Of a stretch of DNA of 64,000 nt, positions 8,500 through 46,377 are shown one piece after another. Made by a program: the position numbers and the translations under genes. Position 1 is the stretch's first letter. The number at the start of each line of letters is the position of its first letter. Under the pieces are notes generated by a model. The model saw only the letters and a list, made by a program, of their open reading frames with translations. It was not told where the DNA came from and made no database searches. This DNA comes from Hyphomicrobiales bacterium (GTDB lineage: Bacteria > Pseudomonadota > Alphaproteobacteria > Rhizobiales > JAJFHB01), in contig JAJFHE010000007.1 in the NCBI GenBank assembly GCA_021775755.1, forward strand, positions 1-64,000, given 5' to 3'.

Positions 8500-8728
8500 T
8501 CCGAACCCCTTTCGGCCTTCTGCGTCATTGTCACGCGATCGTCGCATGGTGGTGTCATAATACCCTCAGTCAAGTGCGATCTGTTGAGTGGCGTGTGAGC
8601 CCCTCCGTGCCTGATGTTGGTTCTGCCTGACGTGCGAGGCCTGCACAGCGGGCGTTTTTCATGACACGTTCGCGCCTTTAAACCGGCTATAGTCACGGCT
8701 TGCACAGGCATGTGGAGGCGAGAGTGAA

Positions 8729-9502: not shown

Positions 9503-9507
9503 GAGCT

Positions 9508-10293: not shown

Positions 10294-10397
10294 GGTTCTC
10301 TCCTGCGGTGTGTGGCATTGCGTGCTCTGGTCGCCAGTCTGCCACCGAACGCCATGCATGGCCACGGGAGAATCTGGACCGGAGTGTGAGCCGCCCG

Positions 10398-29965: not shown

Positions 29966-31387
29966 ATGACCGCTTATGTAGAAAAGTTCGCCGATGCCCT
30001 GCCGACGAAAAAGCGCATCGCCAAGGTGCGCAAGGAGCTTGAGGAGGCGGGCGTGAAATATGTCATGTCCAGCTGGATCGACCTGCACGGCATCCCCAAG
30101 ACCAAGCCGGTGCCGATGAGCGACTTCGAGGAGTTGTGCATGGGCAAGGGACCGCAGTTTGCCGTGCACTCGGTGTCATTCGTTCCCGAACTCTCACCTG
30201 CCGATTCAGATCAGGTCATGGTGCCCGATCTCGACGCGGTCTACATCTGCCCCTGGGACAGTTCGATCGCCATCATCTTCGCGGATCTGTTTTGGGAAGA
30301 CGCTCCCTACAACGTCTGTCCCCGCCAGGCGCTGAAGCGGGCGATTCACGAGGCGGAGAAAGCCGGTTACGTCGGCTATGCAGGCATCGAGCCTGAATTT
30401 ATCGCCATGCGTTTCGACGAGGACGGCACGCCGGTAAAGGCGATCGACGATGACCCGGTTCTGCCGCATGGCAATAAGCCGCGTCGCCAGGCATTCGGCT
30501 ACGATGTGGAGTACTCGATGGACTCCATGCCGTTCCTCAAGGACATGATCGACATTCTGGAAGATATCGGCTGGAACCTGCACGACGTGGTGGCCGAAGG
30601 CGCCTACTCGCAGTTCGAGCTCGACTTCCACTACACCGACCTCCTGGAAATGGCGGACCGGTTTGTGTTCCTGCGCATTCTCCTGAAGGAAATTGCCAAG
30701 CAGCATGGCATGTTCATTACTTTCATGCCCAAGCCAACCACGGGGGACTGGCGTTCCGGCGCACATATCAATTTTTCCCTTCAGTCGATCAAGAAGCCCG
30801 GAGAGAACCTGTTTGGGTCCAAGAAAGACGGCTGGAGCAATGAATCGCGCCATGCGGTCGGCGGATTGATGGCTCATGCTGAGGCGATCACCGCCCTGAC
30901 GTGTCCGACGGTAAACTCATACAACGGCCTCGTGCCGCGCGTTGGCGGCTTTGAGGGTGGTACGGTCACCTGGGCGCCGACAAACATAACCTACGGTCAC
31001 AACAACCGTTCCGCCCAGTTTCGCCTGCCGCAGAGCCGCTACTGCATCGAAAACCGAGCTGCCGACATGTGCATGAATGTCTACCTGGCGCTGGCCATGA
31101 CATTGACGTCGGCACTTTCAGGCATTGCCAACAAAACCGAACCTGGCGATCCGACGGACCGCGACCTCTATTCCATGAAAGAGGAAGAGTTCAAGGAGCT
31201 TGGAATCCGCCGTCTGCCGCGCAATCTGATGATGGCGACCGAGGCGCTTAAGGCCGACGATCTCGCCGGGCAGGTCATGGGCCCCGTCATGCGCAATTCC
31301 TACGTCACTTATAAAAACGACGAATGGGAACGCTATCACCAGGCCGTAACCGACTGGGAAGTCGAGGAATACCTGCGCCTATACTGA
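29966..31387 (+). CDS. Type III glutamine-synthetase-like ligase (GlnT/GMAS-like)
   Basis: This 473-aa cytoplasmic ATP-dependent glutamate-amine ligase is of the GS superfamily. Metal and substrate motifs are GYAGIEPEFIAMRF near 140, EGAYSQFELDFHYTD near 215, TFMPKPTTGDWRSGAHINFS near 255 and PQSRYCIENRAADMCMN near 365. It resembles the GlnT/type III group, which includes gamma-glutamylmethylamide synthetases, more than housekeeping GlnA. It may attach ammonia or a methylamine to glutamate. It lies between two Lrp-type regulators and upstream of the ureohydrolase/urease genes, which suggests it assimilates the nitrogen they release. The start follows CCAGGAGGAAAATTCGA. Confidence 0.85.
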   Translation: MTAYVEKFADALPTKKRIAKVRKELEEAGVKYVMSSWIDLHGIPKTKPVPMSDFEELCMGKGPQFAVHSVSFVPELSPADSDQVMVPDLDAVYICPWDSSIAIIFADLFWEDAPYNVCPRQALKRAIHEAEKAGYVGYAGIEPEFIAMRFDEDGTPVKAIDDDPVLPHGNKPRRQAFGYDVEYSMDSMPFLKDMIDILEDIGWNLHDVVAEGAYSQFELDFHYTDLLEMADRFVFLRILLKEIAKQHGMFITFMPKPTTGDWRSGAHINFSLQSIKKPGENLFGSKKDGWSNESRHAVGGLMAHAEAITALTCPTVNSYNGLVPRVGGFEGGTVTWAPTNITYGHNNRSAQFRLPQSRYCIENRAADMCMNVYLALAMTLTSALSGIANKTEPGDPTDRDLYSMKEEEFKELGIRRLPRNLMMATEALKADDLAGQVMGPVMRNSYVTYKNDEWERYHQAVTDWEVEEYLRLY

Positions 31388-31533
31388 GTTTGGTGGATTC
31401 ACTAACGGTTGGCCAGAGCCCGGAGTACATCGAAATTCGTAATGTCAGCACATATGAACTGCCGATACGGCAAAATATCATTGCGTATCCGATGGATCTC
31501 GTAGATGATTGCTGTTCAGGTGAGCTGCTAGGG

Positions 31534-32076
31534 ATGGATGTGCGGTCGATGGGCTCTGGAACAATCGTCGGGTTCGAACAAGGTGAGGGTCCCGGCCCGG
31601 AACACTCGGTGGACCGGCGGGCGCTGGGCGCTGATCCGATGAACCGGCAGATCATCGCGCGTTTGCAGGAGGATGGCCGCATACCTTACTCCGTCATCGC
31701 GCGCGAGCTCGGTACTTCGGAGGGTACGGTCCGCAACCGTGTCAATCAAATGGTTGCCGCCAATGTGCTGCGCATCATCGGCGTGGCGGATCCGGTCGCG
31801 CTCGGCAATGAAGGCTACGCCCTGGTTGCCATGCGCCTGAGTGCCGGGGCGGACCCGCGCGTGGTGAGCGAGCGTTTCGAGCAGTTCGAAGAAGTAACCT
31901 TCATTCTGTTTGCGGCCGGCCAGTACGACCTTGTGGTGGAAGTCATTTGCGAAACGCATCGCAGCTTGCGGGAGTTCCTTTTGGACAACTGCTACGGCCA
32001 GGCCGATATCGCGGCAGTCGAGCCGATGATGGCACTGGCGCTTTACAAGAACCTCATGAAGTGGGGACGACCGTAG
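31534..32076 (+). CDS. Lrp/AsnC-family transcriptional regulator (second of two)
   Basis: This regulator of about 180 aa is paralogous to the one at 29378-29926. Shared features include the helix-turn-helix ELGTSEGTVRNRVNQM and the effector domain with AAGQYDLVVEVICETHRSL. The start is uncertain. ATG 31534 (MDVRSMGSG) gives a length like its paralogue, while the conserved domain itself begins at MNRQIIARLQ (31639). The frame is open back into the ligase gene. It precedes the ABC importer and its structured leader, so it may control them. Confidence 0.8.
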   Translation: MDVRSMGSGTIVGFEQGEGPGPEHSVDRRALGADPMNRQIIARLQEDGRIPYSVIARELGTSEGTVRNRVNQMVAANVLRIIGVADPVALGNEGYALVAMRLSAGADPRVVSERFEQFEEVTFILFAAGQYDLVVEVICETHRSLREFLLDNCYGQADIAAVEPMMALALYKNLMKWGRP

Positions 32077-32129
32077 AAGGCTTAACGGTGTCGGGTGGCG
32101 TGCTAAGGCCGGCCCGGCGCCGCCATTGA

Positions 32130-32200
32130 GGAGGAGACGCATCATGGTGTTACGCCAGCGTGACGCACAGATCCGATGTCGATCTGGGTTCGCCTCCTCC
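32130..32200 (+). promoter_or_regulatory. Leader hairpin that can hide a Shine-Dalgarno sequence
   Basis: GGAGGAGACG (32130-32139) is the ribosome binding site of the small ORF at 32144. It can pair with CGCCTCCTCC (32191-32200), 9 of 10 bases. An inner perfect stem CAGATC/GATCTG (32168-32173, 32181-32186) would sit inside. The fold would block translation of the small ORF and, through it, the permease gene. Confidence 0.5.
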
Positions 32201-32251
32201 GCGCGTGTGTTTTTCACTGGGCGTGCGTTCGATGGCCGGGGTGATAAATGA
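32144..32251 (+). CDS. Small leader ORF coupled to the ABC permease
   Basis: This is a 35-aa reading frame, MVLRQRDAQIRC onward, ending in RGDK. It has seven arginines and no known domain. It has a very strong ribosome binding site (GAGGAGGAG, 7 bases before ATG), and its stop overlaps the permease start as ATGA. It may be a leader peptide for translational coupling or attenuation of the importer genes, or a real micro-protein. That it is translated is inferred from the RBS and overlap only. Confidence 0.45.
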   Translation: MVLRQRDAQIRCRSGFASSARVFFTGRAFDGRGDK

Positions 32252-33114
32252 GTGATGCTCGCGCGCAGTCCAAGGACGTCGGCTCCGGTGATGTGAGCGC
32301 TCGGTCTACGCCGCGCCGCAAGCGGCGCTGGCTCGAATACAAGACACCCATCTCGCGCCGGGCAACGATCAATCTTGGCATTGCCGTGTGGGTCGTGTTT
32401 TTCGTTCTGTGGGAGGCCATCGTTGTCTTCGAGTGGGTCAACGCCCTTTTTCTGCCGCCGCCGGAAAAGGTCGTCATGGGCTTGGTCAAACTTCTCGTGG
32501 AAGACGGCTTTCTCTTCGATATCGTCGTCAGCGTTTATCGCATCGCGATCAGCTTCGGTTTGGCCTGCCTTGTCGCCGTTCCGCTCGGTATTTTAATGGG
32601 CTCATTCAAGCGCGTCGAGGCGTTCGTCAATCCACTGGTATCGGCCTGGCGGTATCTGCCGGCTCCCTCGTTCATTCCGCTGTTGCTGATGTGGTTCGGC
32701 ACCGGCGATGGTCAGAAGGTGGCACTGCTGTTCATCGGTGTTATCTGGTTCCTGATCACCATCATCATGGATCACGTTAAGTCGGTGCGCACGGAACTGA
32801 TTGAGACGTCCAAGACGCTCGGCGGAAATCGCTTTCAGGTCCTGCTGACCGTCGTCATTCCGGCATCGATGCCGAACATTCTGGTGGCTATGCGCCAGAT
32901 GCTGGCGGTGAGCTGGACGTATCTGGTCATTGCGGAAATCGTAGCCGCGTCCACCGGCATTGGCGCCGTCATGATGCGCGCCAAGCGGTTCCTGCATGTC
33001 GATGAAATTATGGCCTGTATTCTGGTCATCGGGCTTTTGGGCCTGACTTTTGACTTCCTCTTTCGGATCCTGCATCGCGTTTTGTTTCCTTATCTGAACA
33101 CGGAGCGACGCTAG
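32248..33114 (+). CDS. ABC transporter permease, NitT/TauT (SsuC-like) family
   Basis: This 288-aa inner-membrane permease has a charged N-terminal tail of about 40 residues and then six predicted membrane helices. The EAA loop is ELIETSKTLGGNRFQVLLTV near 190. It is the membrane part of an importer with the binding protein and ATPase that follow. Family members carry nitrate, taurine, sulfonates, thiamine precursors or guanidine-like compounds. Its start overlaps the stop of the small leader ORF (ATGA). The genomic setting suggests a guanidino substrate. Confidence 0.88.
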   Translation: MSDARAQSKDVGSGDVSARSTPRRKRRWLEYKTPISRRATINLGIAVWVVFFVLWEAIVVFEWVNALFLPPPEKVVMGLVKLLVEDGFLFDIVVSVYRIAISFGLACLVAVPLGILMGSFKRVEAFVNPLVSAWRYLPAPSFIPLLLMWFGTGDGQKVALLFIGVIWFLITIIMDHVKSVRTELIETSKTLGGNRFQVLLTVVIPASMPNILVAMRQMLAVSWTYLVIAEIVAASTGIGAVMMRAKRFLHVDEIMACILVIGLLGLTFDFLFRILHRVLFPYLNTERR

Positions 33115-33193
33115 GACCGGATGTGAAGCCAAGGCCGGATCCATCGGTTGGTCGATGGATTTGGATGAAGACAACGAAGTATGGGAGGAAAAT

Positions 33194-34270
33194 ATGTCAA
33201 AGCATTTCGACTTGATGAAACTAGCGCGCGGTGCGCGGGCGGCACTGATCGGTGCGGCTGTCGTACTTCTGGCCACGGGAGCGGCGTCGGAAGCCAAAGA
33301 CGAGGTTCGCGTTGCGGGGCTGACCTGGCCCGGCTACGGCTTCTGGTTCATAGCCCAGGAGAAGGGCCTGGCACCTGATCTCGATATCAGCTACCAGGCG
33401 ATCGAGGATCCGTTTCAGACTTTCGGTCTGGCGACCGCGGGCCAGCTCGACATTGTGTCCAGCACCATTGAGTTTGCGCCAATTGCAGCCGCGGAAGATA
33501 TGCCCATCGCACTTGTGGCCTATGGCAACATTTCCTACGGCACGGACAAGATCGTCGTTGGCCCCGGCATTGAAACGGCTGCCGACCTCATCGGCAAAAA
33601 GGTGGCTGTTCTCGAGGGCGGACTTGCTCAGCTCTACATGGCCATTTGGCTGGAGCAGAACGGTGTCGCATACGATCAGGTCGAATACGTAAACCTGATC
33701 ATGGACGACGCCGCTTCGGCAATGATTGGCGGCGACGTTGCCGCGGCCGAATTCTGGGATCCATTCGGCCCGCAGGTGCTTTCCGCCCGGTCCGATACCA
33801 GGCTGGCGACCGACTCTCGTCAGGACTTCTGGCTGAAGAATGCTCTGATCGCCGATGCGGTTTTCATGCGCACCGGTTTCATCGAAGAGAACCGCGAGGT
33901 TGCCGAAAAGGCAATGCGCGCCCTTTACGACGCCATTGCGTGGTGGAGTGAAAATCCCGCTGAAGGAAATCAGATCATTGCCGAGCACATGAAAATGCCC
34001 TTGGCAGATGTTGAACTTGTCATCGGTACGGACGGTACCGGCAGAGATGGCGGGCTATATCCCTATAGCTTCATTGAAGCAGCCCGCTTTTGCGGATCCG
34101 CCCCCGGCGAGCCCCCGTTTGGGCAGACCAACGGCCAGATCAACGACCACTTCCGTATGACGAACGAGTGGTGGATCAAGTTCGGCCTCATGTCGAAGAC
34201 CATGGACCCTTCCGATGGTATCGACTGCTCTCTCCTCGCCAACCTGCACGGGTCGGGATACGGCCAGTAA
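33194..34270 (+). CDS. ABC transporter substrate-binding protein, NMT1/SsuA-like
   Basis: This 358-aa periplasmic binding protein has a signal peptide (hydrophobic stretch to ATGAASEAKD). NMT1/THI5-like lobes follow, with VAGLTWPGYGFWFIAQEKGL near residue 40 and LIGKKVAVLEGGLAQLYMAI near 130. The C-terminal extension GSAPGEPPFGQTNGQINDHF is unusual. The ATG at 33194 is preceded by GGGAGGAAAAT, and 39 bases of open frame upstream are ignored. A guanidino ligand is inferred from the neighbours, not from residues. Confidence 0.87.
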   Translation: MSKHFDLMKLARGARAALIGAAVVLLATGAASEAKDEVRVAGLTWPGYGFWFIAQEKGLAPDLDISYQAIEDPFQTFGLATAGQLDIVSSTIEFAPIAAAEDMPIALVAYGNISYGTDKIVVGPGIETAADLIGKKVAVLEGGLAQLYMAIWLEQNGVAYDQVEYVNLIMDDAASAMIGGDVAAAEFWDPFGPQVLSARSDTRLATDSRQDFWLKNALIADAVFMRTGFIEENREVAEKAMRALYDAIAWWSENPAEGNQIIAEHMKMPLADVELVIGTDGTGRDGGLYPYSFIEAARFCGSAPGEPPFGQTNGQINDHFRMTNEWWIKFGLMSKTMDPSDGIDCSLLANLHGSGYGQ

Positions 34271-34302
34271 TTTTGGCGTCGCGAGGCTGAACTCACTCAA
34301 GG

Positions 34303-34334
34303 TGGCGGAGCCGGGACGATATCCGGCTCCGCCA
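34303..34334 (+). promoter_or_regulatory. Strong hairpin between binding-protein and ATPase genes
   Basis: A perfect 12-bp stem (TGGCGGAGCCGG with its complement, 8-base loop) lies 33 bases after the binding-protein stop and has no T tract. It is likely to protect the upstream mRNA 3' end or terminate partly, giving more binding protein than ATPase. Confidence 0.5.
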
Positions 34335-34402
34335 GCTGCACTCGAAACTTAATCGGGCAGGGGTGCTCAGGCATTCCCGATGCACACGAAGCGTAGGAAG
34401 AC

Positions 34403-35254
34403 ATGGCACAGCCAGCGCAGACGGAAGCCGGGTTGGAGACCAAGCCGCCGGTGAACGGGGACACCAAACTGATCGTCACCGGGCTGATGAAGGAATATCA
34501 CCTCTCATCAGGTGAAAATATTCAGGCGGTCGTCGATGTGTCCTTCGACGTTCAGGACAATGAAGTTTGCGTTCTTTTGGGCCCGTCCGGCTGCGGCAAG
34601 TCGACGGTCCTGCGCATGGTGGCAGGTCTTGAAGAGCCCTCCGGTGGCAGTCTGGTACTTGATGGCCACGAAATTGTCGAGCCGGGCCGCGATCGCGGCA
34701 TGGTGTTCCAGTCCTATACGTCGTTCGACTGGCTGAGCGTCCAGGAAAATGTTGAATACGGCATGCGGCTGAACAGTGTGTCCAAGGCGGAGCGCCGGGA
34801 AAAAGCGGCGCATTTTATTAATCTCGTCAATCTCACGAAATTCAAGGATGCGTTTCCAAGCCAGCTGTCGGGCGGCATGAAGCAGCGCGTGGCGATTGCC
34901 CGCACCTTGGCCAATGAGCCTGCCATCCTGTTGATGGATGAGCCTTTTGGCGCGCTTGACGCCGAGACACGCTGGACCATGCAGGAACTCCTGCTCCATA
35001 TCATGGAGTCGTCGCAGACCACGGTCTTGATGGTGACCCACGATATCGAAGAAGCCATTCTTCTTGCCGACCGCATTGTTTTCATGACGCGTCATCCCGG
35101 CCGGGTGCGCGAGGAACTGATGACGGAGTTCAAGGGCGGCCGAAGAATTGCCGACAAGGAAGCTGTAATAAATCTGCCCGGTTACTCGGAGCTCGACCGG
35201 CACATCATGCACATGATGCGTGAGGAAAGTCCCAATCGGGACGTTTTCACCTGA
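34403..35254 (+). CDS. ABC transporter ATPase, NitT/TauT (SsuB-like) family
   Basis: This 283-aa ATPase energises the importer. It has the Walker A LLGPSGCGKSTVLRMVAGLE near residue 55, the signature QLSGGMKQRVAIARTLA near 155, the Walker B ILLMDEPFGALD and the switch His in VTHDIEEA. It follows the binding-protein gene by 132 bases and precedes the nickel-chaperone genes on the same strand. This suggests one long operon. Confidence 0.92.
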   Translation: MAQPAQTEAGLETKPPVNGDTKLIVTGLMKEYHLSSGENIQAVVDVSFDVQDNEVCVLLGPSGCGKSTVLRMVAGLEEPSGGSLVLDGHEIVEPGRDRGMVFQSYTSFDWLSVQENVEYGMRLNSVSKAERREKAAHFINLVNLTKFKDAFPSQLSGGMKQRVAIARTLANEPAILLMDEPFGALDAETRWTMQELLLHIMESSQTTVLMVTHDIEEAILLADRIVFMTRHPGRVREELMTEFKGGRRIADKEAVINLPGYSELDRHIMHMMREESPNRDVFT

Positions 35255-35309
35255 GTAACGGGCGGCGGAGCGCTCGACGAAAAAACAAAAGCCAAAGGGA
35301 GAGTGTTAA

Positions 35310-36149
35310 ATGTGTGGTGTTTGCGGATGTGGCGACGGTGAAGTTCGCATTGGCGGGAAACCTGCTCACAAGTCACACTCAGGCCATGACCATTCGCACC
35401 AACACCACCATGAGGCTGGAAGTGCAACGGTGAATTCCGATGGCGGCGACCAGAATCGCTGGCTTCACATTGAACAGGACATCCTCTCCAAAAACGATCG
35501 TTACGCCGAAGACAACCGGGCTCGGTTCAATGAGCTGGAAGTGCTGGCGCTGAACCTGGTCTCAAGTCCTGGAGCAGGCAAGACTAGCCTGTTGACGGCT
35601 ACGGCCGAAGCGATCGGCGGCGCCCCGCACATGGCGGTGATTGAGGGCGACCAGGAGACCGAAAACGACGCTGAGCGTATCCGCGCCACGGGCGTCGATG
35701 CAGTGCAGATCAATACCGGGCGTGTCTGCCATCTCGACGCTCACATGATCGGCCACGCGATGGATGAGCTCACATTATCCGCGGGTACCGTGCTGTTCAT
35801 CGAGAATGTCGGCAATCTGGTATGCCCCGCCGCCTTCGATCTCGGCGAACACCACAAGGTCGCCATCCTGTCGGTTACGGAAGGAGAGGACAAGCCGATC
35901 AAGTACCCCGATATGTTTGCTGCCTCCGATCTGATGATCCTCAACAAGACCGATCTGCTCCCTTATGTCGACTTCGATGTGGAGCGCTGCGTCGAGTATG
36001 CCCGCCGGGTTAATCCACAGATTGCGGTTCTGCAACTCTCGGCCCGCAACGGCGAGGGCATGGAAGACTGGCTTGCCTGGCTGGCGAACGCCTCAGATCG
36101 GCTCACCACACCAGTTCGTCAACGGCCGGTGGTTCAGGTCAATGCATGA
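35310..36149 (+). CDS. HypB-type nickel-insertion GTPase (GhaB-like)
   Basis: This 279-aa metallochaperone begins with the high-affinity nickel motif [11 protein letters not shown] His-rich stretch (about 20-34) follows. The G domain has [12 protein letters not shown] near 84, the metal-site [12 protein letters not shown] near 125, [15 protein letters not shown] and the guanine-specificity NKTD. Such proteins load nickel into hydrogenase, but no hydrogenase gene is in the window. HypB/HypA homologues are known to be required by nickel-dependent guanidine hydrolase, and the ureohydrolase pair follows directly. Its stop overlaps the hypA-like start by 8 bases. Confidence 0.92.
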
Positions 36150-36558
36150 ACTTTCCATCGCTCAAAATCTGATTGAACTTGTGAGTGAGCACGCATCGCA
36201 AGAGGGTGCGTGCCGCGTGCGCACGATCCGCATTCGTCTTGGCGAGCTTTCCGGGTTTCAGCGCGCGCTCTATTTTTGTTTCGAACGCGTCGCGCAGAAC
36301 ACGGTATGCGAGGGCGCCCGGCTTGAGATCGAAACCGTGCCGCTCACCCTCCATTGCGGCACGTGCAACGACACGAGGCGCCCGAGCACACGATACAGTT
36401 TTCGCTGTTGTGAATGCGGCATGCCGGCGTCGGAAGTGGTGACGGGGCGCGAAATGCAGATCACCGCAATCGAGTTCGGGTTTGCCGGTACGGACGTTCC
36501 TGCGCCTGATCTTTCCAGCAAACACGAACGCCTGACGGCGGCCCGGCAGATCAACTAG
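36142..36558 (+). CDS. HypA-type nickel chaperone (GhaA-like)
   Basis: This 138-aa protein starts [14 protein letters not shown]. The N-terminal Met-His pair binds nickel in HypA proteins. A zinc site is formed by HCGTC near 72 and RCCECG near 93. The C-terminal tail of about 20 residues is longer than usual. The start overlaps the end of the HypB-like gene, indicating translational coupling. With HypB it probably loads nickel into the ureohydrolase encoded 9 bases downstream, and possibly helps urease. Confidence 0.9.
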
Positions 36559-36567
36559 GAGTTCGAG

Positions 36568-37635
36568 ATGAGTACATCACCGAGTGGAACCTGGGAATTC
36601 GTGCCCCACCAGCATCAGGGGCCGCAGCAGCAAAGCGGGGCCGACGATCACATCTACTCGCCGAAGCTCCACAATGGCACGCTGAAATCAACCGGCCTGG
36701 CGACGTTTCTGGGTGCGCCATACTGTCCGCCGGACCGCAACGCCATCCGCGAGATGGGTGCAAAGATCTGCTTTCTCGGCATTCCCTGGGACCAGGGCCA
36801 GATGGTCCGGTCGGGCACATCGTCCGGTCCCGCGGGTTTGCGTGAAGCGTCGACGCAGTATTTCCCTTACATGTTCGAATACGACGTCGACATCCTGTCG
36901 TTCTTCAAACCGGTGGATTGCGGCGACGTGCCCATCGTGCCGGGTAACAACGACCGCTCGCATGAGTACATCTATCAATACGTGACCGAATGTCTTGAGG
37001 GCGGGGCAAAGGTGATCTTCTGCGGGGGCGATCACTCCGCACCGATTCCCAGCGCCAGGGCGCTCTCCGATTACAACAAGAGCGGCAAGATCGGCTACAT
37101 GCACATCGACTGCCATCTCGATTCCGCGCCGGACTGGGGCGGCATTAAGAACACCAACTGCTCGCCCGTGTCGCGCGCCTTCGATTTGCCGAATTGCGAT
37201 GGTGTCAACATTGCGCACATGGGGTCTCGCAACGGACTTAATCCCAAGGATTGGTACGACTTCTTCGCCAATAGCGACGCGCACCTCATTCCGATGATGG
37301 AAGTGGTCGATCGCGGCATTGAAGAATGCACGAAAGAGATTTTCGATGTCGCCTGGAAGGGCACGGACGCGGTGTACTGCTCCTGGGACACCGATTCGCT
37401 CGACGCAAGCTGCATGCCCGGAACGACCGCTCCGGAGTGCTTCGGTATCATGTCGCGCGAGGCAATCCAGATCGCCCGGATCGCCGGCACCTATGGAGCC
37501 GACATTCTGGAAGTATCCGAACTCAGCCCGATATTCGATGTCAGCCAGATGAGCATCAAGCTCGCTTGCTGCATGATCTATCACTATCTGGGCAGCCGCG
37601 CCAAAACGCTGCGCGATCAGGGCAAGGCCCCATGA
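36568..37635 (+). CDS. Ureohydrolase, catalytic (alpha) subunit; predicted Ni-dependent guanidino hydrolase
   Basis: This 355-aa enzyme of the arginase/agmatinase superfamily keeps all six metal ligands: His156 in FCGGDHSAP, Asp181, His183 and Asp185 in HIDCHLDS, and Asp274 and Asp276 in CSWDTDSLDAS. MPGTTAPECFG near 283 is the equivalent of the substrate loop. It would hydrolyse a guanidino group to urea plus ammonia or an amine. HypAB-type chaperones directly upstream point to nickel rather than manganese. The next gene is a paralogue lacking most ligands, as in alpha/beta metformin and dimethylguanidine hydrolases. Guanidine, methyl- or dimethylguanidine are the likeliest substrates; agmatinase is a possible but less likely automatic label. 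Confidence 0.85.
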   Translation: MSTSPSGTWEFVPHQHQGPQQQSGADDHIYSPKLHNGTLKSTGLATFLGAPYCPPDRNAIREMGAKICFLGIPWDQGQMVRSGTSSGPAGLREASTQYFPYMFEYDVDILSFFKPVDCGDVPIVPGNNDRSHEYIYQYVTECLEGGAKVIFCGGDHSAPIPSARALSDYNKSGKIGYMHIDCHLDSAPDWGGIKNTNCSPVSRAFDLPNCDGVNIAHMGSRNGLNPKDWYDFFANSDAHLIPMMEVVDRGIEECTKEIFDVAWKGTDAVYCSWDTDSLDASCMPGTTAPECFGIMSREAIQIARIAGTYGADILEVSELSPIFDVSQMSIKLACCMIYHYLGSRAKTLRDQGKAP

Positions 37636-37687
37636 GCGCCACCCATCACACAAGAACCAGCATGACCGTATTCGAGGAGGACACCAT

Positions 37688-38719
37688 ATGAACCCGGCCA
37701 AAGCGTACGCGCACCTGTTTTCGCCCCAGGGCGGCGATGATGCGGAAAACTACCGCTCGCCGGCGCAGATATCGTTTCTGCGTTCTGACCACGTGCCGTT
37801 GGACGCGGAAAAACTCCGCGCCTCCGGCGTCCAGTTCGCGTTTATCGGTGTCCCCTTCGACGAGGGAAATGTCGGCAAGCCGGGTTCGGAGGAAGGGCCT
37901 CGGGAATTCCGCATCGCGTCTCAGGAATACTTCCCCTACTGGTTTGAGTATCAGGTGGACCTTTATGGTTCGAGCGCGGACTGCGGCGACGTTCAGATGC
38001 CCAAGGTCAATCCGGAACTTTCGCGCAAACGCATCTACGATGCAGTGCGTGAAGTGCTCGCCGCCGGCATCACACCGATCATCTGCGGCGGCGACCGGTC
38101 GATCTCGATCCCGGCGACACAGGCGTTGTCCGATCACATCGGTGCCGAAAAGAAAATGGGATACCTCCATTTCGGCGCCCATCTCGACCTTGCCGAAACC
38201 TGGGCCGGCGAACGTAATGTGAGCACCTGCGCCCTGGCGCGCATCAGCGAGCTGTCCAATCTCGCGGGCAATAACATTGCCCATGTCGGTGCCCGCAACT
38301 CACTCAACCCGAAGGACTGGATCGACCTGGCGGAGAAACGCGATATCCGCTTCTTCCCGATGTTCGAAATGCTCGACCGCGGCGTCGATCAGGTGGTCGA
38401 AGAAGCAATCGGCCGTGCGTGGGAGGGAACAGACGCACAGTATGTGAGTTTCAATTTCAACGTCATGGATGCATCGATGGCGCCGGGTGTCACGGCCGCC
38501 GAGCCCGGTGGATTGCTGTCGCGCGAAGCGATGCGTATCGCCGGCGCTCTGGGCAAGCGCAAAAGTGTCAGTGTGATCGAGGTTTCCGAACTGTGTCCGA
38601 TTTTCGACGTCAGCGGCACGACTTCGCGGTTGGCAGTATGTGTCATCCTGCGCATCATGGCGGCGATGGCGCAGGCCCGTGGCGAGCTTGTCGATAAATC
38701 CATCACGCGGCCTGGGTGA
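37688..38719 (+). CDS. Ureohydrolase-fold non-catalytic (beta) subunit
   Basis: This 343-aa paralogue of the preceding protein shares FPYWFEYQVDLY, ARNSLNPKDW and EVSELCPIFDVS with it. Its metal site is broken. GGDH is GGDR (Arg137), DxHxD is GAHLD (Gly163 for Asp, with His165 and Asp167 kept), and the SxDxD motif is SFNFN (Asn256, Asn258). Four of six ligands are therefore lost, and it cannot hold the usual two-metal centre. A full-length, well-preserved fold with a good ribosome binding site (GAGGAGGACACCAT) argues for a structural partner of the alpha subunit rather than a pseudogene. Confidence 0.85.
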   Translation: MNPAKAYAHLFSPQGGDDAENYRSPAQISFLRSDHVPLDAEKLRASGVQFAFIGVPFDEGNVGKPGSEEGPREFRIASQEYFPYWFEYQVDLYGSSADCGDVQMPKVNPELSRKRIYDAVREVLAAGITPIICGGDRSISIPATQALSDHIGAEKKMGYLHFGAHLDLAETWAGERNVSTCALARISELSNLAGNNIAHVGARNSLNPKDWIDLAEKRDIRFFPMFEMLDRGVDQVVEEAIGRAWEGTDAQYVSFNFNVMDASMAPGVTAAEPGGLLSREAMRIAGALGKRKSVSVIEVSELCPIFDVSGTTSRLAVCVILRIMAAMAQARGELVDKSITRPG

Positions 38720-38763
38720 TAAACTCCGGCACCCAACTGCCTGGAACCGGAAAGCGGTGGTCC

Positions 38764-39030
38764 AGGGTCAGGACCCATTATATTCATGCAATTCTGTTTG
38801 GACAGGAGGTTTCGAATGTTGGAAAACGAGCGCAAGATAAGGCTTTGTGCCTTATCGAGCATTGTTTGCCTGCAGGCGGGCCCTCCTGTCCAAACCCTTC
38901 GGGCGCGGCGGATTGGCCTCCCAAGCGCGTTAGGCAGGCTTGAAAACCGCAAGGTTTCCGGCGCCTGCCTGCCTTCTCGGCAGGCCAATCCGCCGGCGCA
39001 GAATGGATGAATCTAATGAGCCCTGACCCT
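38764..39030. repeat. Structured MITE-like element in the ureohydrolase-urease gap
   Basis: This 267-base element has imperfect 27-bp terminal inverted repeats (AGGGTCAGGACCCATTATAT at the left, complement ending CCCTGACCCT at 39030; 23 of 27 match). Inside are two nested stem-loops. One is GTTTGGACAGGAGG (38796-38809) with CCTCCTGTCCAAAC (38882-38895) around a GATAAGGC hairpin. The other is GGCGGATTGGCCT (38907-38919) with AGGCCAATCCGCC (38982-38994) around AGGCAGGC/GCCTGCCT. It has no coding capacity. It fills almost all of the 313-base gap and ends two bases before ureE. Confidence 0.75.
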
Positions 39031-39032
39031 AG

Positions 39033-39488
39033 ATGTCGGTGAGGATTTTGCAAGTCCTGGGGTTCGCGAGCGAACCCGCACTGGCGGACCGGCTGCACGC
39101 CCTGGGGCACGACGGTTGCGTCGAGCATCTGACGCTCTCGCACGATGACGTGCACCGGCGCCGGCTGCGCGCGCAGACGGACAAGGGTACGGATTGTCTT
39201 ATTGCCCTGCCGCGCGAACAGCGCCTCGGCGACGGCGCCGTGCTGGTGCTGGAGCCGGAGCGTGCGGTTGTCGTTCGGCTGGCGGAGGAGAGCTGGATTG
39301 AGGTTGTGCCCCGCGATGCGGCCTCAGCGCTTGAACTTGGCTATTTCGCCGGCAATCTTCACTGGCGCGTGCGCTTCCGCGAAGACACCCTGCTTATCGC
39401 CCTTGCGGGGCCGGAGAAGGACTATCTTGATCGGTTGCAGCACTTTGTCGGCGATGGCCGCGCTCAGGTGGTGCCGCACGATGACTAA
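39033..39488 (+). CDS. ureE: Urease accessory protein UreE
   Basis: This 151-aa nickel-delivery protein for urease has an N-terminal UreE domain (about 1-75). The C-terminal metal-binding domain has the conserved metal histidine in YFAGNLHWRVRF near 110. It lacks the His-rich tail of some UreE proteins. The ATG at 39033 lies two bases after the MITE-like element and has no recognisable ribosome binding site; GTG at 39039 is an alternative. Its stop overlaps the ureF start (ATGACTAA). Confidence 0.85.
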   Translation: MSVRILQVLGFASEPALADRLHALGHDGCVEHLTLSHDDVHRRRLRAQTDKGTDCLIALPREQRLGDGAVLVLEPERAVVVRLAEESWIEVVPRDAASALELGYFAGNLHWRVRFREDTLLIALAGPEKDYLDRLQHFVGDGRAQVVPHDD

Positions 39489-40164
39489 ATCCGCCGACAT
39501 GACGCTTGCCGCTTTTCAACACGCGGACAGCTTCTTCCCGAGCGCCGCCGTATCCTTTTCGTGGGGCCTGGAAGCGCTCTCCAACCGGGGGCTTGTGGCG
39601 ACGCGGGATGATCTCTCGAAGTTCGTCAACGCCCAGCTGATCCATCGCTGGGCCGGCTTCGACCGTCCGGTTCTGGTGCACGCACATGCAGCGGCACCGG
39701 AGCTCGCCGCACTGGCAGAGCTCGATTTTCTTGTTGAGGCGCAGACGCTGGCACGCGAGCAGCGAGAAGGCTCGCGGCGCATGGGGGCGGCGCTTCTTTC
39801 CGTTCACGCAAAACTGGCGACGCCCGGCGCGGAGGATTTTCTGTCCGATGTGCAGCGTGGAGATGCCTGTGGCCACCTCGCGGTGGCGCAGGGACTGGTG
39901 TGGCGGCAGTTAGGCTTTGACGCTGAGCTGGTCCAACTTATGGCGGCGCACGGCATGTGCACCGGCTTGCTGGGTGCTGCTGTTCGATTGGCGATTATTG
40001 GACATGTCGATGCTCAGCTCATTCTGCGCGAAATGCATCGCAGCGTCGAAAACGTTCTGGCGCAGCCGGTATGCGGGCCGGACGCTCTGAACAGTTTTGT
40101 GCCGCAAACCGAAATCGCATCGATGAATCATGAAACAGACGACATGCGTCTGTTCGCAAACTGA
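39481..40164 (+). CDS. ureF: Urease accessory protein UreF
   Basis: This 227-aa helical protein acts with UreD and UreG in loading nickel into urease. FQHADSFFPSAAVSFSWGLE near residue 12 is the UreF signature. The start ATG at 39481 overlaps the ureE stop by 8 bases. The frame is open upstream inside ureE, but the overlap and family length support this start. UreF is a GTPase-regulating partner of UreG. Confidence 0.87.
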   Translation: MTKSADMTLAAFQHADSFFPSAAVSFSWGLEALSNRGLVATRDDLSKFVNAQLIHRWAGFDRPVLVHAHAAAPELAALAELDFLVEAQTLAREQREGSRRMGAALLSVHAKLATPGAEDFLSDVQRGDACGHLAVAQGLVWRQLGFDAELVQLMAAHGMCTGLLGAAVRLAIIGHVDAQLILREMHRSVENVLAQPVCGPDALNSFVPQTEIASMNHETDDMRLFAN

Positions 40165-40191
40165 CACGGCAATGAGACAAGGGAGACCGGC

Positions 40192-40884
40192 ATGTTGCTG
40201 ACACCGACGGAGCTGGAACGATTGACGATATTCACCGCGGCGGAGATTTCTCGGCGGCGCAAGGCGAGGGGCCTGAAACTCAATCATCCCGAAGCCATCG
40301 CCTATATCTCCGATGAGATACTCGAAGGCGCCCGGGAGGGTCGCTCTGTTGCCGACCTGATATCCTATGGGTCGACGCTGTTGGACCAGGACGACGTCAT
40401 GCCGGGCGTGGCCGATCTCATCCCCATCATTCAGGTTGAAGGGACGTTTCCCGACGGAACGAAACTGGTGACTGTGCACGATCCGATCCGTCCGGGCAAA
40501 GACAAGCAGAGGGGTGTGACGCCGGGTGAGCTGATGCCGCAGGACGGCGATATCGAGATCAATGCAGGACGGCGAACCGTCAAACTCAAGGTCGTGAACA
40601 CCGGCGACCGTCCGGTGCAGATCGGCAGCCACTATCATTTCTTCGAAACCAACAAGGCGCTCGACTTTGACCGGGAGAAGGCATTCGGGCTGCGGCTCGA
40701 TATTCCAGCCGGAACGGCGGTTCGGTTCGAGCCTGGAGAGTCCAAAAGCATAACGCTCACCGAGTTTGGCGGAACACAGGAACTGCTCGGACTGAATGGC
40801 CTGACCAACGGCTCCGCGAAGAGCGACGCGGTCAAACAGGCGGCCCTGCGGCACGCCCGCGAACTCGGCTACAAGGGGGCTTGA
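40192..40884 (+). CDS. ureAB: Urease gamma-beta fusion subunit (UreA-UreB)
   Basis: This 230-aa protein joins the two small urease subunits. The gamma part covers about residues 1-100 ([37 protein letters not shown]). The beta part covers about 110-220 ([40 protein letters not shown]). Fusion of gamma and beta is known from Helicobacter and some other bacteria; most alphaproteobacteria keep ureA and ureB separate. It is followed after 3 bases by ureC. Confidence 0.92.
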
Positions 40885-40887
40885 TCG

Positions 40888-42600
40888 ATGGCGACGATGA
40901 AACGCAAAGACTACGCGCGCATGTATGGCCCCACGGTGGGTGATGCGGTCCGTTTGGGCGACACCAGCCTTGTCGCGGTCGTGGAAAAGGACCACATCGT
41001 TCCCGGCGATGAATGTCTGCATGGCGGCGGCAAAACGCTGCGTGACGGCCTCGGGCTGACGCCCGGCTACGACAGCGCCATGGGCGCTCTCGATATGCTG
41101 TTGTGCAATGCCACGGTGATCGACCCGGTACTCGGCATTATCAAGGGTGACATCGGCATCAAGGACGGCAAGATCGCCGGCATCGGCAAGGCCGGCAATC
41201 CCGGCATCATGGACGGGGTCGATCCCAACCTGATCTGCGCGGCCTCCACGACGGTGCGAGATGCGGAAGGCCTGATTGCCACACCGGGCGGTATCGATGT
41301 GCATGTGCATTTCGATTCAGCGCAGCTTTGCGAGCATGCGATCTCTTCAGGTCTGACGACGATGATCGGCGGGTCGCTCGGACCCATTACGGTCGGCATC
41401 GACTGCGGCGGCGCCTTCAATGTCGGCAAGATGCTGCAGGCAGCGGAACAGTGGCCGATAAACTTCGGCTTTCTGGGGCGCGGGAACACCTCAAAGCCGC
41501 GCTCGATCCTCGACCAGATCGCCGGTGGCTGCTTCGGTATGAAGCTGCACGAGGACTGGGGTTCGATGCCGAGTGCCATCGACACCTGTCTCGGCGTCGC
41601 GGACGAGCTCGACTTCCAGGTTCAGATTCATACCGATACGCTGAACGAAAGCGGCTTTCTGGAGAACACGCTCGCCGCCATCAACGGCCGCACCATCCAT
41701 ATGTATCACACGGAAGGGGCGGGCGGCGGCCATGCGCCCGACGTCATCCGCGTCGCCGGCGAGATGAACTGTCTGCCGTCCTCCACCAACCCGACCAATC
41801 CCTACACGGTCAACACGTTCGACGAACATCTCGATATGACCATGGTGTGCCATCACCTGAGCCCGTCGATCCCCGAAGATGTGGCGTTCGCCGAAAGCCG
41901 CATTCGCCCCCAGACCATCGCGGCGGAAGACATCTTGCACGACATGGGCGCGATCTCGATGCTGGGCTCGGACAGTCAGGGCATGGGGCGCATCAACGAG
42001 GTGATCTGCCGGACCTGGCAGTTGGCCTCGAAAATGCGGGATCAGCGCGGCCGGCTGCCCGAAGAGACGATGGCCAAGGGCGATAATGAGCGCATCAAGC
42101 GCTATATCGCCAAATACACCATCAATGCGGCGCGCACTTTCGGCATCGAGCAGTATGTCGGCTCTCTGGAGGCTGGCAAGCTAGCCGATGTTGTGCTCTG
42201 GCGGCCGGGCTTCTTCGGCATCAAGCCTGAGCTCGTAGTCAAGGGCGGGTTTATCGCGTGGGGCGCCATGGGCGACAGTGCGGCCTCGCTGATGACCTGC
42301 GAGCCGATCCAGATGCGCCCGCAGTGGGGTGCGTTCGGTGAGGCAAAGAAGGCGCTCAGCGCATGCTTCGTCAATCCGATGGCGCTTGATGCCGATATCG
42401 GCGGCCAGCTTGGCCTGTCGAAGATGCTTCTGCCGTCGTCGGGCACGCGCAAGCTCAACAAGCAGCACATGCTGCACAATGCGAGTTGCCCGGAAATCAA
42501 GGTCGACCCGCAAACCTTCGACGTCGTTGTCGATGGCGAGCTTGCAACGTGCGAGCCGGCCGAAGTGCTGCCGCTCGCACAACTCTATATGTTGAGGTGA
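40888..42600 (+). CDS. ureC: Urease alpha subunit UreC
   Basis: This 570-aa catalytic subunit hydrolyses urea to ammonia and carbamate. The nickel ligands and active-site residues are present: His139 and His141 ([10 protein letters not shown]), the carbamylated Lys219 and His221 (GMKLHEDWG), His248 ([13 protein letters not shown]), His274 ([15 protein letters not shown]), Cys321-His322 of the flap (MVCHHLSP) and Asp362 (GSDSQGMGR). Several flanking positions (GCFGMKL rather than GAIGLKI, GSDSQ rather than SSDSQ) show a divergent urease lineage. With intact catalytic residues and a full accessory set it should be active on urea released by the upstream ureohydrolase. Confidence 0.95.
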
Positions 42601-42607
42601 GATCGCC

Positions 42608-43261
42608 GTGAGCAAGATCGTCACGAAGATACAGGACGGGTCCGCCCCGCGCTCGGCCGCGCGCGTTGGCATCGGCGGTCCGGTCGGGTCAGGCAAAACA
42701 GCCCTCATCGAACGCCTCATTCCAGCACTTGGTGCGTGCGGGATCGAAAGCGCCGTCGTCACCAACGATCTCGTGACGAAGGAAGACGCAAAGCGTCTGC
42801 AAAGCAGTGGGCTGATTTCTCCCGACCGGGTGATGGCGGTGGAGGCGGGCGCCTGTCCCCACACCATTATCCGCGAGGACCCGACATTGAACATTGCCGC
42901 CGCTGACGAGCTGGCGCGGAAGTTTCCGCAAGCCGACGTCATCTTCATAGAAAGCGGCGGGGACAACCTCGCCTCGACCTTCTCGCTCGATCTTGTTGAC
43001 TACTGGATGTTTGTGATCGACACGGGCGCTGGTGACGACATACCTCGCAAAAAGGGACCCGGCATCGTGCGCAGCGACCTTCTTGTGATTAACAAGATCG
43101 ACCTCGCCCCGCATGTCGGAGCGAACCTGGAACTCATGAAACGCGAAGCGCGCGAGGTGCGTTCAGGCCGGCCCATGGTGCTGACCAACTGCCGCGACAA
43201 TATCGGCATCGATGACCTGGTCGGGAAACTCCGGCACGATGTGTTGTTTGTCGGTGCCTGA
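42608..43261 (+). CDS. ureG: Urease accessory GTPase UreG
   Basis: This 217-aa SIMIBI-class GTPase drives nickel insertion into urease. The P-loop is [13 protein letters not shown] near residue 21, and the nickel-binding Cys-Pro-His is in [23 protein letters not shown] and the base-specificity NKID are also present. The GTG start at 42608 comes 7 bases after the ureC stop. The ureD start follows one base after its stop. Confidence 0.93.
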
Positions 43262-43262
43262 T

Positions 43263-44132
43263 ATGCTGCACCGGCCTGAACAAACGGCAAAGGTTCGCAA
43301 GACCCCGGGACCGGGACGCCTGGAACTGGCGTTCGCGCGCGCCGCGTCCGGTCAGACATTTCTCGAACACCAGTACAGTTCCTATCCATTCCACGTTTGC
43401 CGTGCGCTTCATCTTGATGACGATAGGCCGGGCATGGCGACCGTCTATACGCAATCGTGTTCGGGGGGTCTCTATACACAGGACAGCCTGCTCACCACAG
43501 CACGCGTCGGGCCGCACGCCCAGGCCCACCTGACAACGCAGGCCTCGACAATCGTTCACAGGGCGACCCGCGGTGCTGCCGAACAGGTGGTGCACTGCGA
43601 GGCCGGTGAAGCCGCATTCCTGGAGTATCTGCCCGATCCGGTCATTCTCCTGCCGGGCTCGGAACTCATTTCCCGGCTGAAGGTGAAAGCAGACCCGACG
43701 GCAACAGTTATACTCTGCGATGCCTTCCTGTCGCATGATCCGGACGGGCAGAAAAAGCCCTTCGGAACCTTCCGCAGCGAAGTTGTGATCGAAGACCCGG
43801 CAGGGCGCCCGGCCGTCATCGACCGCTTTCACGTGCGTGGCGAGGACGTGGCTGAGGAAAGGCTCGGTGTGACCGGCAACTTTTCCTGTCAGGCGATGGT
43901 GATGGCCTATAGTCCGGCCCATGACGTGGTGGCACTGCTTGCCGCCGTGCGCGAAGCGGAACGGATGTGTGAGGGCGTTGAGGTCGGCACGTCTGAACTG
44001 CCGGGCGGATGCGGTGTATGGGCGCGCATACTCGCCCGTGACGGCGCCGATCTGAAAGACGCCACTGTGGCGCTCTGGTCTGCCCTTCGTGTGGAACTTC
44101 TGGGGCAGGCTCCCAGTCTGCGGCGCAAGTAA
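43263..44132 (+). CDS. ureD: Urease accessory protein UreD/UreH
   Basis: This 289-aa scaffold protein carries nickel with UreF and UreG to apo-urease. Typical segments are YTQSCSGGLYTQDSLL, LTTQASTIVHRA and EYLPDPVILLPGSEL. It is the last gene of the urease set, where ureD often comes first in other bacteria. The ATG at 43263 is chosen because it follows the ureG stop by one base. Nothing after it looks like a terminator. Confidence 0.88.
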   Translation: MLHRPEQTAKVRKTPGPGRLELAFARAASGQTFLEHQYSSYPFHVCRALHLDDDRPGMATVYTQSCSGGLYTQDSLLTTARVGPHAQAHLTTQASTIVHRATRGAAEQVVHCEAGEAAFLEYLPDPVILLPGSELISRLKVKADPTATVILCDAFLSHDPDGQKKPFGTFRSEVVIEDPAGRPAVIDRFHVRGEDVAEERLGVTGNFSCQAMVMAYSPAHDVVALLAAVREAERMCEGVEVGTSELPGGCGVWARILARDGADLKDATVALWSALRVELLGQAPSLRRK

Positions 44133-45090: not shown

Positions 45091-46185
45091 TCAGCTGTGG
45101 GTTCGCAGCTTTTTTGGATCGTAGATGGGCAGCGATACCACCTCGGCGGTTGTTTCGATGCCGCCGCCCGACAGTTCCAATTTGGTTCCGGGGGACGACG
45201 CGGACGGGCTGACATGAGCCAGCGCGAGTGATTTGCCCAGGCGGTGCGAGTAGCACGGGCTGTTGACCACGCCGAGCGCTTGTCCGTCCTGTGACAGGAC
45301 TTCTTCTCCGTTCACCATGTCGTCGTAATCGATAACCAGTCCTACGTTACGGACCTTTTCCTTGCCTTCCGCCGCCAGCATCGCGTCGCGGCCGCGATAT
45401 TCGCTCTTGCCGCGGCTCACCGTAAATCCAAGGCCGACCTCCCAAGGCGTGTGTTCGGTCGTCATGTCATAGCCGTAGAACAGCAGTCCCGCCTCTATCC
45501 GCACTTTGTCGAGCGATGCGAACGAGCAGGGCATTACGCCGGCGCCAGCCAGATGGTCCCATATGTCTCCAGCTGAACTTGCATCTGCGAATACTTCATA
45601 ACCCCTTTCGCCGGTATAGCCGGTCCGCGATATCCGGCACGCATGGCCGAAGAGTTCTGCCGGTGTATGATCGAAGTATCGCAGCGCCTCGAGATCGACG
45701 GAGCAATTGGCGTTCAGGATTCCCAGCGCCTTGGGGCCCTGGACCGAAATGTCATGCAGATCATCGTTCAGGGCATAATCGACGTTTAGTCCGCTCGCCG
45801 AAGCTTCCAGACACTGCGTGGTACCTCCAGAGCCGTGTACGATGGTCCATTCGCCGCCGCCATTGCTGGCGACGATGGCGTCGTCGCACATGGTTCCTTC
45901 ATCCGTCAGCACCGAAAGATAGGCGGAGTGCCCGGGAGCGATTTTCCCGATGTCGCGCGATGTCACATGATCCAGCAGAGCTTGTGCATCGGGCCCGTTC
46001 ACAAACACCTTCTTCAATGGCGACATGTCGAACATGCCGGCGGCTTCGCGCACCGCGTCATGCTCGTCGTTCGGGTTGGAATTATAACTCCAGGCAGTAC
46101 CCATTCCGTTCCAGTCCTCAAGGCCCGATCCCAGTTCGGTGTGGCGGGAGGCGAGGATGGAGGTGCGGCTCAGTTCTTGGGTCAT
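45091..46185 (-). CDS. GcvT-family aminomethyltransferase/demethylase-like protein
   Basis: This 364-aa protein is of the glycine-cleavage T-protein superfamily, which moves C1 groups to tetrahydrofolate. Diagnostic parts are the N-terminal DMSPLKKVFVNGPDAQALLD, RISRTGYTGERGYEVF near 190 and the C-terminal beta-barrel. No gcvH or gcvP is near, and the next gene on this strand is an MttB-like methyltransferase. It is therefore more likely a demethylase or THF methyltransferase for a methylated amine such as glycine betaine or dimethylglycine than true GcvT. A short mobile-looking element separates the two genes. Confidence 0.78.
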   Translation of the reverse strand: MTQELSRTSILASRHTELGSGLEDWNGMGTAWSYNSNPNDEHDAVREAAGMFDMSPLKKVFVNGPDAQALLDHVTSRDIGKIAPGHSAYLSVLTDEGTMCDDAIVASNGGGEWTIVHGSGGTTQCLEASASGLNVDYALNDDLHDISVQGPKALGILNANCSVDLEALRYFDHTPAELFGHACRISRTGYTGERGYEVFADASSAGDIWDHLAGAGVMPCSFASLDKVRIEAGLLFYGYDMTTEHTPWEVGLGFTVSRGKSEYRGRDAMLAAEGKEKVRNVGLVIDYDDMVNGEEVLSQDGQALGVVNSPCYSHRLGKSLALAHVSPSASSPGTKLELSGGGIETTAEVVSLPIYDPKKLRTHS

Positions 46186-46222
46186 TTGTTTGGTCCTGTT
46201 TGTTGATGCGTCAGTTCACTAG

Positions 46223-46373
46223 AGCCCATTTGATGAACTCGGAGCCACTTTGACCGGGTTGTTTTGCCGCGTGGCGGCGTTGCGCCGCTTGCCCGATGCC
46301 CCGCATCGCGCCGCGCCGTGCCGGTCGAACTGACTTGGTCCATCAAAGTGTCTCCGAATTCATCAAATGGGCT
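46223..46373. repeat. MITE with 33/35 terminal repeats and CTAG target duplication
   Basis: The 151-base element AGCCC...GGGCT lies between CTAG at 46219-46222 and CTAG at 46374-46377. Counting the flanking CTAG, the outer 35 bases match the complement of the other end at 33 positions (for example AGAGCCCATTTGATGAA). A CTAG target (YTAR) is typical of IS5-group transposases. There is no coding capacity; the GC-rich core can fold. Confidence 0.8.
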
Positions 46374-46377
46374 CTAG

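Follow-up and report, generated by a model that had tools for sequence, protein, structure and literature searches.

Gene organization of the locus

The window, the whole 64,000-nucleotide stretch of DNA analysed here from a Hyphomicrobiales bacterium, contains a cluster in which a ligase, an Lrp-type regulator, a transporter, nickel proteins, a pair of ureohydrolase genes and urease genes share the forward strand (29966-44132). The first gene encodes a glutamine-synthetase-like ligase (29966..31387; PF00120), whose best PDB match is the glutamate-methylamine ligase 9qur (E 4e-75); the NCBIfam model for type III glutamate-ammonia ligase matched it under the cut-off. The transporter is of the ABC type and comprises a Tau/Ssu-type permease (32248..33114; PF00528; best NCBIfam model TauC), an NMT1/SsuA-type substrate-binding protein (33155..34270; PF09084; best NCBIfam model SsuA family) and an ATP-binding protein (34403..35254; PF00005; best NCBIfam models SaoA, taurine and nitrate), with all these NCBIfam matches under cut-off.

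The transporter genes are followed by genes for the nickel-insertion GTPase HypB (35310..36149; TIGR00073, 292.5 bits against a cut-off of 121.2) and the nickel metallochaperone HypA (36142..36558; PF01155, 102.4 bits against 28.9). The ureohydrolase pair consists of an alpha subunit (36568..37635) and a beta subunit (37688..38719; 343 amino acids, ATG start). Downstream are UreE (39033..39488; NF009752), a urease gamma/beta fusion (40192..40884; NF009671), the urease alpha subunit UreC (40888..42600; TIGR01792, 803.9 bits against 680), UreG (42608..43261; TIGR00101) and UreD (43212..44132; PF01774), where NF009752, NF009671 and TIGR00101 also scored above cut-off. No model matched UreF in the frame tested, and its presence is assumed. 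An Rfam search of the window at gathering scores gave one tRNA only and no guanidine riboswitch. GcvT-like and MTTB-family genes lie beside the cluster on the reverse strand (45091-47931), which suggests methylated-amine metabolism.

The host genome (5.47 Mb, 77 contigs, 99.45% complete) gave zero matches to NiFe-hydrogenase (PF00374) and zero to HypD, and contains two HypB genes above cut-off, each adjoining one alpha-beta pair. Because there is no NiFe-hydrogenase or HypD and both HypB genes stand beside pairs, the likely job of HypA and HypB is nickel delivery to the ureohydrolases (or to urease). The second pair, on another contig, is 71% (beta) and 66% (alpha) identical to the window pair. 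Its cluster (8352-11843) has the order hypB-hypA-alpha-beta, followed by a PotABCD-like ABC transporter, a label of our own for matches to generic ABC families of Pfam, and a TetR regulator. At E <= 0.001 the query matched 22 ureohydrolase sequences in this genome, and two of these matches, on one contig, look like pieces of one gene.

The beta subunit has lost four metal ligands and is homologous to MefH-beta

Alignment with MefH, a metformin hydrolase, showed that the six ligand positions of beta are occupied by R137, G163, H165, D167, N256 and N258. Four of the six are therefore substituted (R137, G163, N256 and N258, at MefH-alpha positions 158, 183, 276 and 278), and H165 and D167 are kept. 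The first-pass annotation had named Arg137, Gly163, Asn256 and Asn258 as the altered residues, and its numbering was right. It had also described an excellent ribosome binding site directly after a fully liganded paralogue. We located a Shine-Dalgarno-like AGGAGG at 37675..37680, 7 nt upstream of the beta ATG, and found that the upstream alpha carries all six ligands (HDHDDD).

The rest of the beta fold, which the same annotation had called intact, was recovered by structure prediction. An AF2 model built from an alignment of 27 of the 34 betas described below gave a pTM of 0.83 and a mean pLDDT of 78. In a structural search of the PDB, its five best hits were MefH beta chains (61-64% identity; TM 0.86-0.87 normalised by query length), followed by MefH alpha chains and then by guanidine hydrolases. 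In the model, the low-confidence segments (1-17, 63-65, 262-273, 304-308 and 340-343) partly coincide with the predicted N-terminal cap and the loop near the vestigial pocket; these segments may become ordered in the complex.

A PDB sequence search gave metformin hydrolase subunit B (8ryi_C, E 1.4e-156) as the top solved match of beta, and metformin hydrolase alpha chains (8x3g_A, 8snf_D) as those of alpha. Identity to the MefH copies on Pseudomonas mendocina plasmids is 64% for beta and 65% for alpha, and in quick trees the two subunits fell, respectively, into the alpha and beta clades that contain MefH and the dimethylguanidine hydrolase DmgH. These identities and common clades indicate homology, not just analogy, so the suggested likeness to metformin and dimethylguanidine hydrolases held. 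Three traits of that family are present at the locus: an alpha gene with six ligands followed in tandem by a beta gene with an incomplete set, hypA and hypB adjoining the pair, and an alpha residue, Asn199, at the position where arginase has His.

Published work has described this design. MefH is a nickel enzyme of alpha2beta4 composition whose alpha subunits alone carry the metal (PMC11399263, Sinn et al. 2024; PMC11271267, Li et al. 2024), in agreement with the first-pass statement that only the alpha subunit holds nickel. In this enzyme, the alpha pocket is capped by the first 23 residues of beta, and either subunit was inactive by itself; in the published structures, no metal or ligand is visible in the beta sites. 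Four beta ligands are replaced by the count of Sinn et al. (PMC11399263) and five by that of Li et al. (PMC11271267), and the latter reported 56 pairs with three to five ligands altered in members of the beta clade. The division into a catalytic alpha and a metal-free beta is thus already known, including at the family level (PMC11399263, PMC11271267).

The enzyme known as MefH, MetCaCb or MfmAB (Aminobacter, Pseudomonas; PDB 8RYI, 8X3G, 8SNF) is likewise a tandem alpha/beta pair after hypB-hypA, with full alpha ligands and most beta ligands lost. However, the window alpha has a Thr-Thr-Ala loop where MefH has Asn-Ser-Ala, and the window pair is accompanied by a Tau/Ssu-type ABC transporter and a ligase, whereas the plasmid copy of MefH has an NCS1 transporter and HupE. 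The window pair belongs to an environmental branch that differs from MefH in its active-site loop and its neighbouring transporter genes. DmgH of Aminobacter niigataensis DSM 7050 (66% alpha, 65% beta identity) has the same architecture and is urease-linked. Its alpha has Ser184 and Ser-Thr-Ser at 288-290, in contrast to the Cys and Thr-Thr-Ala of the window; this Aminobacter signature may not define the whole family. GdmH-type guanidine hydrolases are single-gene enzymes. The available descriptions of two of them (Synechocystis 7ESR and the Nitrospira guanidinase 9FEK) give the same fold, nickel dependence and chaperones as in the window pair, but they are less like the window beta (25-29% identity in structural alignment).

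Conservation of the pair in relatives

One genome per species was scanned for 84,980 species with two peptide patterns, which may miss more diverged betas. The scan returned 34 loci, and alpha lies next to or near beta in 31 of them (L013-L043). These 31, the window, its second copy and plasmid MefH make up a set of 34 pairs. All six ligands are present in every alpha (34/34), and the full set is present in none of the betas (0/34). Position 278 of beta is Asn in all 34. The other positions are nearly as constant: 183 is Gly in 31 and Ser in 3, 276 is Asn in 32 and Asp in 2, and 158 is Arg in 30 and His in 4. At the two ligand positions kept in the window, 185 is His in 27 and Gln in 7, and 187 is Asp in 29, Glu in 2, Asn in 2 and unread in 1.

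One scan pattern, FNFNVMD, spans positions 276 and 278 and could have favoured betas with Asn there. The other pattern is free of ligand positions and occurs in 32 of the 34 betas. Within this subset, Asn is found at 278 in 32/32 and at 276 in 30/32, Gly or Ser at 183 in all 32, and Arg at 158 in 28. Since the substituted residues recur at fixed positions across the 34 pairs, the loss of ligands in beta is not due to chance.

The alpha pocket residues N199, W192 and E320, as defined by Li et al. (PMC11271267), are kept in 34/34. In the beta cap, Y22 is found in 29 of 34 (Phe in 5) and F82 in 32 of 34 (Leu in 2). Around GGDR and FNFN, the conservation of beta exceeds its average over the protein. 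We also considered an unusually conserved N-terminal cap in beta; the effect is mild only, with 55 of 320 windows of equal length as conserved or more.

HypA or HypB is encoded at 31 of the 34 loci. The three loci that have neither (L013, L014 and L022) belong to isolates whose second pair (L016, L028 and L042) has both.

Strong beta matches (E <= 1e-100) were found in all 4 genomes searched from the window's family. At the level of the order they were found in 5 of 397 genomes, and at that of the class in 1 of 385, the window's own. Four of the five matches in the order belong to that family (own genome included), and the fifth has the same contig coordinates as L041. Viral carriage was considered and dropped, with zero matches in viral_contigs to six peptide patterns that find close relatives only. 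Plasmid carriage was set aside likewise: three of 545 matching plasmid records are 60-80% identical to beta, all from Pseudomonas, and none is higher.

Selection on the two subunits

Nei-Gojobori dN/dS was calculated for hand-chosen pairs; 19 were tried, 4 were saturated and 15 were usable. The ratio is 0.018-0.185 for beta and 0.015-0.174 for alpha, and between the window and L013 it is 0.090 and 0.078, respectively. When the window is compared with its closest relatives, dS is about 1.1-1.4 and thus close to saturation, so the comparisons within Aminobacter and the MefH plasmid are more reliable; there, dS is 0.2-0.7 and dN/dS is 0.022-0.103 for beta and 0.023-0.143 for alpha. Purifying selection on beta is about as strong as on alpha. 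This ratio among orthologues had been proposed as the check on a conserved partner, and it came out in favour of one.

In a quick tree with long outgroup branches, each subunit type occupies one side of a branch (SH-aLRT 99), separate from the nine further ureohydrolase homologues included. Alpha and beta distances are correlated, with a Mantel r of 0.87 across 33 pairs and of 0.82 across 29, values that none of 5000 permutations reached; shared species history by itself also produces such a correlation. The pairs are a case of a pseudoenzyme subunit maintained by selection, in both alpha- and gammaproteobacterial lineages.

Active-site classes and their neighbouring genes

In MefH numbering, the window alpha pocket residues C182, T286, T287 and A288 are positions 184 and 288-290. 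The combination C-T-T-A at positions 184/288/289/290 is found in 13 of the 34 alphas, including the window. C-T-S-C occurs in 12, including the second copy of the window genome, S or A-S-T-S in 8, including Aminobacter DmgH, and C-N-S-A in MefH alone. In a quick tree, the C-T-S-C alphas are one clade; the C-T-T-A alphas are not, as two changes are required, and MefH lies within the S/A-S-T-S group.

The genes around the pairs were counted by a panel search of the flanks. A Tau/Ssu-type permease is present at 10 of 13 CTTA loci versus 0 of 21 others (Fisher 2e-6), a ligase at 8 of 13 versus 0 of 21 (7e-5), and PotB at 12 of 12 CTSC loci versus 1 of 22 others (2e-8); these p-values are optimistic, since the tests ignore the relatedness of loci and some of the contigs are short. 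PotA and PotC matches at one CTTA locus (L038) belong by position to L025, a CTSC cluster that shares its contig. On that contig, JABJGO010000013.1, the two pairs of different classes lie about 12 kb apart. Within the fetched flanks, UreC was found at 5 of 13 CTTA loci (the window, L013, L014, L017 and L039) versus 0 of 21 others; for Aminobacter, a downstream urease has been reported by Sinn et al. (PMC11399263). Downstream of the pairs at L036, L037 and L040 we also observed shared Methane/Phenol/Alkene hydroxylase genes (PF02332 in L037 and L040; MmoB in L037).

Six genomes have two pairs, and in each of them a CTTA pair is combined with a pair of another class; the chance probability of this is 0.06-0.07. 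We found no description of the CTTA class in the accessible parts of the family literature (PMC11399263, PMC11271267, PMC11647477, PMC12508155, PMC13390362), and the supplementary trees may show one. The class split with class-specific transporters is apparently less covered by the literature than the subunit design. According to Sinn et al. (PMC11399263), no biological system is known to contain dimethylguanidine, and the reason for a dedicated bacterial hydrolase is unclear. Three active-site classes with distinct transporters, together with the six two-class genomes, provide concrete enzymes and binding proteins for a search for the natural substrates.

Proposed function and alternative explanations

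The locus very probably encodes a nickel-dependent, heteromeric member of the DmgH/MefH ureohydrolases, with a catalytic alpha, a metal-free beta as structural partner and lid, and HypAB, the transporter and urease in support. The ligand pattern, homology, conservation, selection, gene neighbourhood and absence of hydrogenase described above are its basis. By analogy with the published relatives, alpha would hold two Ni2+ ions loaded by HypA and HypB, and the metal-free beta would build the trimer/hexamer and cap the alpha pocket with its N-terminal segment; stoichiometry and metal content would follow the same model. The expected reaction of alpha is the cleavage of a small guanidino substrate into an alkylamine and urea; the likeliest candidates are N,N-dimethylguanidine and alkylguanidines like it. 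The ABC transporter might import this substrate, and the adjacent urease would consume the urea; the substrate and the roles proposed for the transporter and ligase are more tentative than the features taken from the relatives.

Four lost ligands in beta might also mark a decaying duplicate of alpha that is kept by linkage. In L041 (Methyloceanibacter marginalis, draft contig), the alpha is intact and the beta frame is broken near codon 276-280, where an assembly error and a mutation cannot be told apart. The Rhodobacteraceae genome AG-457-F15 (L044) has at 9990-10660 a remnant with stops and frame changes. However, both subunits are damaged in this remnant, the beta dN/dS is as low as that of alpha, and the substituted residues themselves are conserved, with 278 Asn throughout. 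Moreover, at L014 (8156-9968) HepT-like and DUF4396 genes separate alpha and beta by 1.87 kb, and beta is intact. We therefore regard decay as extremely unlikely. The first-pass annotation had held that frameshifts or relaxed selection in close relatives would speak against a conserved non-catalytic partner. Frameshifts do occur, in the L041 beta and in L044, where alpha is broken too; relaxed selection is not seen, dN/dS being low, and its reading of a retained partner, and against simple decay, stands. The near fixation of the substituted residues and the above-average conservation of the GGDR and FNFN segments would also suit a dead site with a new role, for instance binding a guanidinium ligand that regulates alpha. 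This is improbable, since published structures have empty beta sites (PMC11399263, PMC11271267) and the conservation may be structural. Separately, the L044 remnant is followed by a frame that resembles UreE by eye.

With beta as a structural partner, the remaining alternatives concern the substrate of alpha. Window alpha shares Cys184 and Ala290 with MefH at 65% identity, as a metformin hydrolase might, but 288-289 are Thr-Thr instead of Asn-Ser. In DmgH, Ser184Cys together with Asn-Ser-Ala at 288-290 (four changes) gave metformin activity, and the loop changes without Ser184Cys gave none (Sinn et al., PMC11399263). Tested relatives except MefH have no metformin activity or activity about 20,000-fold below MetCaCb (PMC11399263, PMC11271267). 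In addition, the window has no match to a CodB-type (NCS1, MetT-like) transporter at 40% identity and half coverage, and metformin is a synthetic compound; a metformin hydrolase is very unlikely here. Sinn et al. (PMC11399263) also tested a homologue from Hyphomicrobium, with 70%/68% identity to the DmgH of A. niigataensis, and found that it hydrolyses dimethylguanidine and not metformin. L021, a CTTA pair, has the same 70%/68% identity to the DSM 7050 pair, and the values for S/A-STS pairs from genera other than Aminobacter are 74-79%/73-76%. From these two identity values, the tested enzyme appears to be CTTA or near it, so dimethylguanidine would be the likeliest tested substrate of the window pair and metformin an unlikely one. 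Against dimethylguanidine count its absence from known biological systems (PMC11399263), the coexisting second class, the neighbouring ligase, and zero matches in the window genome to PF11927, presumably the family covering the dimethylamine monooxygenase subunit DmmA. For this ligase, dimethylamine is a less fitting substrate than ammonia or a primary amine. The CTTA class could thus act on another natural guanidino compound, with the amine captured by the ligase, a narrower form of the preferred explanation that is compatible with it. The permease and ligase associations and the two classes in all two-pair genomes favour it, but the association is by neighbourhood, the permease lies 7-8 kb beyond beta in L036, L037 and L040 or upstream on the other strand in L039, the six-of-six result may be chance, and L021 matches a dimethylguanidine hydrolase. 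We consider it a serious possibility that falls short of probable.

Extended to the family, this would mean at least three specificities, read from alpha 184/288-290 and the linked transporter, with CTTA hydrolysing an unnamed natural alkylguanidine, the ligase capturing the amine and beta serving as a constant scaffold and lid. This extension is tentative, and we think it rather unlikely as a whole. If it is true, MefH gained Cys184 and Ala290, two of its four key residues, by reverting to states common in environmental enzymes.

The intergenic region between alpha and beta

The alpha and beta genes are separated by 52 nt. A frame of 19 codons (37632-37691, forward strand) bridges them; it starts with an ATG that overlaps the alpha stop codon and ends in a TGA that overlaps the beta start. 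Among 30 loci checked, the 52-nt gap with an open 19-codon frame is also present in L013, L015 (with GTG), L019, L020 and L023, where the peptides are dissimilar. This frame possibly reflects translational coupling for unequal subunit dosage, or chance. L025 has the 52-nt gap as well, but there the frame stops earlier.
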